IMG/VR virus record: IMGVR_UViG_3300042988_000092
Location: 1 to 23,285 of that record
DNA from: a virus
Length of the DNA: 23,285 nt
Direction: 5' to 3' (one strand)
The translations under genes were made by a program, and so were the position numbers. Under the pieces are notes generated by a model that was not told the DNA's origin, searched no databases, and was given only the letters and a program-made list of their open reading frames with translations. Shown in pieces: positions 15,989-22,440 of this stretch (the first letter of the stretch is position 1; every line of letters starts with the position of its first letter).

Positions 15989-16108
15989 CTAGACACCAAG
16001 TCGTTTTGCAATCGCCTTGCAGGCGGCTTCAATCTGTTCTTGCGTTGCGTCAGGATGCAAATGCAGCCAAGTTGACTTTTCGCTTTCGTAGCGCTTGTGC
16101 TTATCCAT
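15989..16108 (-). CDS. Small conserved-looking protein, 39 aa
   Basis: The frame runs from ATG at 16108 to TAG at 15989-15991, with a second TAG immediately after. The product is MDKHKRYESEKSTWLHLHPD followed by ATQEQIEAACKAIAKRLGV, a compact protein with a charged first helix, a Trp and a second amphipathic helix. The RYxxEKxxWLxxxPDAT pattern resembles very small phage proteins I have seen next to replication genes. It lies just past the terminator hairpin, and a weak AGGA is 10 nt before the ATG. No function is known to me. Confidence 0.6.
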   Translation of the reverse strand: MDKHKRYESEKSTWLHLHPDATQEQIEAACKAIAKRLGV

Positions 16109-16120
16109 TTTCTGGAATCC

Positions 16121-16174
16121 TAAAAAGAAAAAGCCCTTGAACCCCCGTGGAATCAGCACGGAAATTCAAGGGCT
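16121..16174 (-). terminator. Intrinsic terminator formed by the second hairpin
   Basis: The second hairpin described for the structured RNA (stem up to 18 bp with wobble pairs, loop CUGAUUC) is followed directly on the minus strand by TTTTCTTTTTA (16131-16121). That is the classic shape of a Rho-independent terminator. It would end transcription of the methyltransferase-rusA operon before the replication genes; read-through or a separate promoter must then feed the replication block. Confidence 0.85.
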
Positions 16175-16230
16175 AGGCCTTTGACGGCTTTAAAGTATCT
16201 GGCCCTGATTCGACCAACTTTAAAACCGTC
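16132..16230 (-). ncRNA. Two-hairpin structured RNA with complementary (kissing) loops
   Basis: Minus-strand RNA from 16230 to 16132 folds as two hairpins. Hairpin 1: a 14-bp stem (16230-16217 with 16196-16183), a 3-nt bulge, a 5-bp stem (16216-16212 with 16204-16200) and loop GAAUCAG (16211-16205). Hairpin 2: a 10-bp stem (16174-16165 with 16141-16132), three U-G pairs (UUU with GGG), a 5-bp CCGUG/CACGG stem and loop CUGAUUC (16156-16150). The two 7-nt loops are perfect reverse complements. Five G-U pairs (one in each stem of hairpin 1 and three in hairpin 2) would be A-C mismatches on the plus strand, so the RNA is minus-strand. It starts 12 nt after the rusA stop. No family is recognised; function unknown. 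Confidence 0.75.
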
Positions 16231-16241
16231 TGAGTGTTATT

Positions 16242-16598
16242 TTACCCAATCATTCGCATCGGCTCAAGGTTTATTTTCACCATCCCGCCGACATCGCCAG
16301 CCAATGAAAAACTCATTGTCCACTTGCTGTCGTCCACGCCGCTGATCTCGGCTACTGCGTCGATGGCTTGCTTGATCCTGGCGATGCAGTTGTCCAGGTC
16401 AATCCTGCGCTTTGATGGCGGGTAAAACGTGATTGTGGCGTGCAGGCGTGGCGAGTCAATCCGGGTCAGGCCTTGCTGCCTTGCGGTGATGTAGCAAGCC
16501 TGGCGGTAGTCTTTGGCGGCGCGGGCTTTGATGGCCCAGTGCCCGCGCGCGTTAGGGCTTAGGTCTGGCGATGGCCATGGCATGGTCAGCTCAATCAT
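16242..16598 (-). CDS. rusA: RusA-family Holliday junction resolvase
   Basis: RusA is a dimeric endonuclease that resolves four-way DNA junctions. This 118-aa protein has family length and pattern: IELTMPWPSPDLSPNARGHW near the start, ATITFYPPSKRRIDLDN with D67 and D69, K76 in ARIKQAIDA, and D89/D90 in ISGVDDSKW, corresponding to the conserved acidic residues and lysine of E. coli RusA. The ATG at 16598 overlaps the methyltransferase stop (ATGA) and has GAGG 7 nt upstream; a start at 16631 would overlap more and is not needed. Phage RusA works on recombination or replication junctions and debranches DNA before packaging. It pairs with the ERF, exonuclease and SSB genes of this window. Confidence 0.92.
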   Translation of the reverse strand: MIELTMPWPSPDLSPNARGHWAIKARAAKDYRQACYITARQQGLTRIDSPRLHATITFYPPSKRRIDLDNCIARIKQAIDAVAEISGVDDSKWTMSFSLAGDVGGMVKINLEPMRMIG

Positions 16599-18094
16599 TG
16601 GATGGCCTCTTGAATCCGTTTGCCGATCCATCGGACCACTGGCACGGCCCAGCTGTTGCCAAGCGCTTTGTATCGAGGCCCGTCGGGGCAGTCCTCAATG
16701 GTTGGGCCGCGCAGCGTCATGCCGCGCTCTGCAAGCAGGGATTCGTAGATCACGCCTTTGCGCTTCGCCTCTTGCGCCGTCTTCCAAGGGATCGCGGTGT
16801 AGTTGTCGGGGAAACCTTGCAGGCGCTCGCACTCCACCGGGGTGAGGCGACGCACGGCCATAGGGGGTGTGGTGGTGCAGGCCAGTGCCTCGGCCTCGAC
16901 TCGCTCGTTACCTGTGCGGCTGTACGGTGGGCCAGATGAACCCATGCACGGCCCGACTTCGGCTGGAGCCATAAATGCCTGCGCCACCGCCTGCGTGCCA
17001 CCATCGGTGTCCAGCGGGCCGGCGCGGCCTTGCCATGAGTCAGGGTCTTGGCGTGCGTTGAAGCCGATGGGCTGGGCCGGGACAATCGCCACCGCATCGG
17101 CACATGAGCGGCTGTCCTGCGTGAATGCCAAGTCTGCTTGCCAGCCCTTACCCTGCGGCCCGGCGCTGTCTTTGCGTCCAATCTGTGCGTGCTGTAACGC
17201 ATACGCCGCAATCGGCGCTTCATGGTTGCAGGTCAGGGTCTGACCACGGTCAAAGCCGATTTCAGCACAGCCTTGTCCGTTGGCCATGGTAATGATGGCT
17301 GGCAAAGGGTGGCCGCTGCCTGTTGGAGAGCCTTTCAAAAGTGGCCCGGTTGGTTCGTCTGCTGTGTGCCTGTTTCCTTCGTAGTCGATACCGCCAGCAA
17401 GGCCGCTTCCAGCGCTGGGGGCAGAGTTTTGCCACGCTTTTCGGCTCGGCGCAGAATCCCGGCGCACGCCGTCGAACTCAAGAAGAACCGCTGCGGGATC
17501 GAAGTCGTCTCGAGCACTTGCGACAACGAACACACGTCGGCGTCGTTGGGCCACTCCGAAATATTGGGCGTCGAGGACGCGCCACGCGACTGCTCTTTGG
17601 GGGCCATACACACAACCTGCGTTCGTCCATTTTTCCCCTGATGGGATGATCGGATCATCTTCCCCGGCAAGTGCGCCAAGAAAACAGCCGAAGGCGTTGT
17701 CTTTGGTGCTGAGGACTCCTGGCACGTTTTCCCAGAAGATGATTGCCGGGTCATCTCGTCGAACAGATCGAACATGGTCAATTGCATTGGCGATACCTAC
17801 AAAGGTGAGTGAAAGATTGCCCCTTGCATCGTCAAGGGAGTTACGAAGGCCAGCAACAGAAAACGCTTGGCAAGGCGTGCCGCCGCAAAATAGGTCGGGC
17901 GCTTCAATTTCGCCAGAAAGGATGCGCTCTGGTAGTGCGGTCATGTCGCCAAGGTTTGGAACATCAGGGTAATGGTGCGCCAGCACGGCGCTTGGAAATG
18001 GCTCAATTTCGGCCAACCATGCAGCACGCCACCCCAATGGGTGCCATGCCACGGATGCGGCCTCAATGCCAGAACAAACAGATCCAAATCTCAT
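16595..18094 (-). CDS. C5-cytosine DNA methyltransferase
   Basis: This 499-aa enzyme transfers methyl from SAM to C5 of cytosine. Motifs are complete and in order: I (FGSVCSGIEA, 3-12), IV with catalytic C75 (GGTPCQAFSVAG, 71-82), VI (ENVPG, 122-126), VIII (QRRRRVF, 183-189), then the target-recognition region (about 200-415), and IX/X (RLTPVECERLQGFPDNY and KALGNSWAVPV, 476-486). The variable region is long, over 200 residues, with Gly/Gln/Pro-rich low-complexity stretches. No restriction enzyme lies beside it, so it is probably a phage anti-restriction or regulatory methylase. Its ATG overlaps the 67-aa gene's stop. Its target sequence cannot be inferred here. Confidence 0.95.
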   Translation of the reverse strand: MRFGSVCSGIEAASVAWHPLGWRAAWLAEIEPFPSAVLAHHYPDVPNLGDMTALPERILSGEIEAPDLFCGGTPCQAFSVAGLRNSLDDARGNLSLTFVGIANAIDHVRSVRRDDPAIIFWENVPGVLSTKDNAFGCFLGALAGEDDPIIPSGEKWTNAGCVYGPQRAVAWRVLDAQYFGVAQRRRRVFVVASARDDFDPAAVLLEFDGVRRDSAPSRKAWQNSAPSAGSGLAGGIDYEGNRHTADEPTGPLLKGSPTGSGHPLPAIITMANGQGCAEIGFDRGQTLTCNHEAPIAAYALQHAQIGRKDSAGPQGKGWQADLAFTQDSRSCADAVAIVPAQPIGFNARQDPDSWQGRAGPLDTDGGTQAVAQAFMAPAEVGPCMGSSGPPYSRTGNERVEAEALACTTTPPMAVRRLTPVECERLQGFPDNYTAIPWKTAQEAKRKGVIYESLLAERGMTLRGPTIEDCPDGPRYKALGNSWAVPVVRWIGKRIQEAIQ

Positions 18095-22373: not shown

Positions 22374-22376
22374 GGC

Positions 22377-22440
22377 GTGGCTACCTTTAGCGGGGGAAAA
22401 GGCGATTCGTTACCGCCCTGCCACATCTTCACAGTAACGA
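22377..22440 (+). promoter_or_regulatory. Structured leader before the inserted HNH gene
   Basis: Between the remnant and the HNH gene are about 90 nt with local symmetry: GTGGC/GCCAC (22377-22381, 22420-22424) and TCGTTAC/GTAACGA (22407-22413, 22434-22440). These two pairings overlap and cannot form together, which could act as a switch or simply reflect chance. The stretch is GC-richer than the HNH gene that follows. AGG lies 7 nt before the ATG at 22465. Confidence 0.35.

Follow-up and report, generated by a model that had tools for sequence, protein, structure and literature searches.

What is the RNA encoded between a resolvase gene and the small open reading frame (ORF) that follows it in this phage, and which of the two genes does it serve? 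In the window, the whole 23,285-nt stretch of viral DNA analysed here (IMG/VR record IMGVR_UViG_3300042988_000092), the element occupies positions 16121 to 16230 on the minus strand. A sequence-only reading had described it as two minus-strand hairpins with exactly complementary 7-nt loops, and the minimum free energy (MFE) fold of positions 16240 to 16110 matches as drawn. Hairpin 1 (16183 to 16230) consists of a 14-bp outer stem and a 5-bp inner stem, separated on the 3′ side by a 3-nt bulge (GAU, 16199 to 16197); 98 to 99% of its cells are paired, and an alignment of homologues has double changes at 13 of its pairs. Its loop (loop 1, GAAUCAG, 16205 to 16211) has the family form GNNNNAG. The linker, AAAGGCCU (16175 to 16182), for which the family consensus is GGC and then either CUA or UGA, leads to hairpin 2 (16132 to 16174), an 18-bp stem including three U-G pairs whose loop (loop 2, CUGAUUC, 16150 to 16156) has the family form CUNNNNC. 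Hairpin 2 is followed by UUUUUCUUUUU on the minus strand, and terminator scan and alignment place the U-tract, UUUUCUUUUU, at 16121 to 16131. The suggestion that hairpin 2 also ends transcription agrees with the terminator scan, which independently lists it as a predicted intrinsic terminator of canonical form, with a G+C-rich stem and a U-run. The window element has an MFE of −57.5 kcal/mol (z = −6.7 versus dinucleotide shuffles). There are five G-U pairs in total, as counted earlier, and these identify the minus strand as the folding strand.

Relatives of the RusA protein in a viral collection led to further copies of the two-hairpin element behind rusA, in which both loops had changed jointly to GGACUAG/CUAGUCC; two further loci (L019 and L021) carry it after rusA with other loop sequences again. 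Two pattern scans, in which the query was the outer stem of hairpin 1 plus the linker and the loop sequence was left out, returned about 30 more distinct members. Loop complementarity was perfect in all complete members and in none of the false positives. Alignment A1 (35 rows), in which GGC and the A of the linker are invariant, came from a finder that required 7/7 loops, and the evidence free of this selection consists of the pattern-scan matches and the matches of a covariance model built with both loops treated as unpaired (loop-blind; its calibration was short). The loop-blind model found two extra members missed by both patterns, a second copy in G013 (GUGCAAG/CUUGCAC) and one in L194 (GUACCAG/CUGGUAC), each with a 7/7 loop match.

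Loops 1 and 2 are exact Watson-Crick complements in all 37 distinct homologues, which come from environmental phages and contain 13 different loop pairs. The loop match is therefore not due to chance. Independent change of the two loops had been named beforehand as the observation that would speak against the contact, and compensatory change as the one to look for. The loops change together: four of the seven kissing pairs vary and covary, the changes are always double-sided and never single-sided, and the 259 cells of the kissing helix (37 sequences) are all Watson-Crick with zero G-U. Shuffling or sliding the partners lowered the pairing and covariation measures, and the top two column pairs by mutual information in the whole-element alignment are kissing pairs. 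At the level of comparative sequence analysis, we regard the loop-loop helix as established. The stems also covary strongly, including G-U exchanges, which again assign the RNA to the minus strand. Geometry is nearly constant in the family (14 bp, 3-nt bulge, 5 bp, 7-nt loops, about 18 bp, and a linker of 6 to 8 nt), which argues for a kissing contact within one molecule and not between molecules; retention of complementarity through compensatory change is likewise what an intramolecular kissing loop calls for. In two members, L005 and L047, the upper part of hairpin 2 is identical and the base stems differ, which suggests recombination between phages inside the element.

An earlier proposal was that the contact protects the 3′ end of a rusA-methyltransferase mRNA. 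The gene upstream in the window encodes a RusA-like Holliday junction resolvase (16242 to 16631, minus strand; phrog_34, E = 4e-22). Its stop codon is overlapped by the −10 hexamer of a predicted sigma-70-type promoter on the minus strand (16239 to 16267; −35 TTGAGC at 16267 to 16262, 17-nt spacer, −10 TAAAAT at 16244 to 16239; 9/12 match), with a predicted RNA start near 16231 on that strand and a family RNA length of about 105 to 115 nt. Among homologues, the −10 hexamer ends 6 to 9 nt before hairpin 1 in 23 of 23 distinct upstream contexts, and T1, A2, and T6 of TATAAT are present in every one of these. The mean −10 match is 5.0/6, versus 2.4 at random positions in the same loci (maximum 3.0 among 2,000 draws), and a scan of the sense strand gave its best −10 match at the same offset before hairpin 1. 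No conserved antisense −10 or promoter was found across 31 members, and an antisense-RNA model was rejected for lack of one. Downstream in the window, a Shine-Dalgarno (SD) sequence (AGGA, about 16121 to 16118) precedes a 39-amino-acid ORF (15989 to 16108, minus strand; MDKHKRYESEK...). Homologous ORFs of 39 to 43 amino acids stand behind the element in L037, L047, L067, and L080, and in several phages an ORF with the family pattern (..YE.EK..WL..HPDAT.EQI..A..AIA.RLG) stands behind it; this ORF family has no Pfam or PHROG match.

Genes upstream of the element vary among members (rusA, small HTH/Cro-like proteins, and others). Those downstream vary too (DUF1376, MARIRTVKPE-type, HNH, helicase, and the 39-amino-acid ORF), belong mostly to the replication module, and are co-directional, with an SD and then a start codon directly past the U-tract in each member. 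Protection of the rusA mRNA was accordingly not supported and was rejected: the upstream genes are unrelated, a −10 box lies before the element, and an SD/ATG lies after it. Because the element is always found between a −10 box and an SD/ATG, it is better described as a 5′ leader, or else as an RNA in its own right, than as a 3′ element of rusA, and its earlier placement is probably wrong. As far as sequence can tell, the feature is larger than first described, running from a predicted promoter at one end to the SD of the next gene at the other, and its architecture would be that of a promoter, kissing hairpins, and terminator in a leader that precedes genes of replication type. Among relatives that share these downstream genes, most are without the kissing RNA; since carriers are a small minority, the element is dispensable for the downstream gene.

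Other RNAs occupy the same position. An int-alpA RNA (RF02996; 15901 to 15975, minus strand; 35.6 bits versus a gathering score of 35.8) lies next downstream of the element and is preceded by TTGCAA-17-TAGAAT, and a covariance search placed a second window copy at 22374 to 22439 on the plus strand; the RF02996 model had no match at 16121 to 16230. In about half of the fetched DUF1376-type loci, an int-alpA-like RNA stands directly after the −10 box, according to a regular-expression classification that is approximate. One upstream gene end and promoter are followed by the kissing RNA in L050 and by an int-alpA-like RNA in L256 to L258. Likewise, the promoter after rusA is followed by the kissing RNA in L005, by int-alpA in L004 and L012, and by a third terminator RNA in L003, L007, and L008. 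The leader slot looks interchangeable among RNA types, and int-alpA and the third-type RNA probably serve the same job in it as the kissing RNA.

These other occupants have long-range pairings of their own. In int-alpA-like leaders (the window copies and L124 to L323), which stand ahead of replication genes, the loop pairs with a segment near the SD, and the pairing covaries. Complementarity between the loop and the segment just downstream is at least 5 nt in 37 of 37 unique loop segments (mean pairing of 5.9 versus 3.3 with partners shuffled), and this pseudoknot may be absent from the Rfam model. The final stem of the int-alpA-like leaders is weaker and A+U-rich. The third leader RNA consists of a hairpin, an NNAGUA segment that pairs with UACUNN in a hairpin loop, and a strong terminator at the end; it occurs at L003:3417, L008:3399, L084, L128:2405, and L192:2403 in three compensating versions (GUAGUA/UACUAC, GAAGUA/UACUUC, and GCAGUA/UACUGC), and it too is probably undescribed. 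In L040, the kissing element is followed by a piece reading GGCTAG...GGAAGTCATGAGCCTAG, possibly a decayed int-alpA-like RNA, as if two leader cassettes had been stacked.

Several known systems share parts of this design. Like the kissing RNA, int-alpA is a phage leader running from the −10 box to before the SD, with the same promoters and genes in relatives, and in these phages its loop takes part in a covarying long-range helix; it differs in being a three-way junction of about 71 nt without the two-hairpin kissing fold. RNA I and RNA II of ColE1 also have 7-nt, fully paired kissing loops, with a terminated RNA of about 108 nt, but they form an intermolecular antisense pair, whereas the contact in the window element would be intramolecular. 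In pT181, a terminator precedes the replication initiator gene. The pT181 attenuator is a leader hairpin that kisses in trans with an antisense RNA, as described in PMC3753616. The window element shares with pT181 a leader terminator (predicted) between promoter and gene SD; it differs in that a single RNA carries both loops, and a scan of 31 members gave no conserved promoter for an antisense RNA. Gifsy-1 IsrK, according to the abstract of PMC4825925, comes from a phage promoter whose products are a short RNA ending at a terminator and an mRNA made by read-through; IsrK activates translation by targeting, in trans, this transcript of its own. The two RNA products are a predicted likeness to our element; a kissing-hairpin architecture is not described for IsrK in that abstract. 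The HK022 put RNA is portrayed in the available portion of PMC9378689 as a V-shaped RNA of about 70 nt that contains a triplex, lies (as putL) just downstream of the phage early promoter, and acts in cis to suppress downstream termination via the zinc-binding domain of the RNA polymerase β′ subunit. Both RNAs have two stem-loops ahead of early genes and directly downstream of an early promoter, although for the window element the promoter is predicted and "early" is taken from its position in the replication module. In contrast, put is without a terminator in the element, and complementary loops are not described in that portion of PMC9378689. A blastn search of the phage collection gave no match of HK022 to the window element, and no sequence relation to putL or putR was found.

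The order of promoter, structured RNA, terminator, SD, and replication gene leads us to read the element as a promoter-proximal attenuator with the kissing loops building its core, a reading to which we assign a probability of about 0.5. RNA polymerase starting at the local promoter would make hairpin 1 first, and loop 1 would capture loop 2 while hairpin 2 emerges from the polymerase, so that a single compact tertiary body would form, with the 3-nt bulge allowing the short inner stem to turn back. Most polymerases would then halt at the U-tract and release a stable short RNA, and the level of read-through would determine the amount of replication-gene mRNA; a factor of the phage or the host, or antiterminated polymerases arriving from upstream, would set that level. 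It is plausible that the kissing contact tunes termination, as first suggested, and the helix could help or hinder it. The covariation of an all-Watson-Crick kissing helix, kept in the members found by the loop-blind model, favours this attenuator, as do the near-fixed geometry, the −10 box in every upstream context with no conserved antisense counterpart, the SD/ATG of replication-type genes directly past the U-tract, and the cassette swap with int-alpA-like or third-type RNAs at one promoter. Against it, hairpin 2 and the kissing helix are structurally compatible and can coexist, and mutual information revealed no alternative antiterminator helix beyond the known helices and near-register shifts, so that no conformation was found that would make a switch. 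Tight packing of phage genes could alone explain an SD beside the terminator, and the weak end stem of the int-alpA-like leaders and the small minority of carriers among relatives with the same downstream gene also count against attenuation.

The main rival to the attenuator is a phage sRNA that stands alone and acts in trans, for instance as a regulator or as a decoy that binds protein. It would be delimited by promoter and terminator and stabilised by the kissing fold, with the next gene merely adjoining. A predicted promoter of its own at the base of hairpin 1, a strong predicted terminator, one copy per phage as the rule, the Rfam typing of the alternative occupant int-alpA as an sRNA gene, and the movement of cassettes among different neighbour genes all fit this idea. 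We nevertheless consider it less likely than attenuation, given that every member lies directly before a co-directional SD/ATG, at swap sites common to other leader RNAs, and that there is no conserved unpaired seed: both loops are consumed in cis, and conservation is confined to the GGC linker.

Plasmid incompatibility is a precedent for loop types that do not cross-react. By analogy, loop 1 of one RNA might pair in trans with loop 2 of another nascent copy and confer an immunity or copy-number-like specificity. The 13 loop types invite this thought, as do loops that differ in about half of the element pairs at least 90% identical elsewhere, the two copies with different loops within one phage (G009 and G013), and the replication-type genes downstream. 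Fixed geometry and within-molecule covariation are instead what a cis contact predicts, no conserved antisense promoter was found, and neither the pattern scan of a genome collection nor a search of 369 genomes gave prophage copies; we hold this specificity to be unlikely. Little probability, too, falls to an ordinary closely packed terminator or 5′-end stabiliser, in which the contact protects the RNA or aids termination without regulation. The canonical stem and U-tract and the very stable fold fit such an element, but an ordinary terminator would need neither an immediate upstream promoter nor exact covariation of distant loops.

The kissing RNA is apparently an uncatalogued regulatory RNA. 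The impression that it belongs to no recognised family held up: the window and nine homologous loci gave no Rfam 15 match at gathering scores for it, and at E ≤ 5 the element had weak matches alone, judged chance. Other blastn matches, including that to phi80 M3 RNA, were 19 bp only and were set aside as chance. Members are found on environmental viral contigs and in one assembled phage genome, MW202710.1 (Manatee Spring), in which UOF80823.1 follows the RNA, at a site upstream of ninB. Copies are usually one per phage, with two in G009 and G013. The element was not found in a plasmid collection; the pattern scan of the genome collection gave four matches, all chance on inspection, with unmatched loops; and model R2 found none in 369 genomes of one bacterial class, evidence made weak by a fast filter. 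The nearest terminase is that of Pseudomonas phage MR14 (73%), and from our reading of the sources, the environments are largely freshwater. A bolder and doubtful extension is that the kissing hairpins, the int-alpA-like RNAs, and the NNAGUA/UACUNN type, as pseudoknotted families unrelated to one another, could be swappable parts at one promoter/replication-gene control point, acting protein-free to reprogram or gate RNA polymerase as a general RNA-based early-gene switch of freshwater phages.

The RNA family described here is not in Rfam 15 and comes from phages known from environmental sequence only; covariation proves its loop-loop tertiary contact with unusual clarity. Through the interchange, int-alpA, which is already catalogued, gains a definite location between the promoter and the SD of a replication gene, and leader-RNA control becomes open to a simple reporter test. 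Further, 13 kissing pairs that all differ from one another occur naturally on a single scaffold, and they could serve as ready-made RNA parts for tests of orthogonality.
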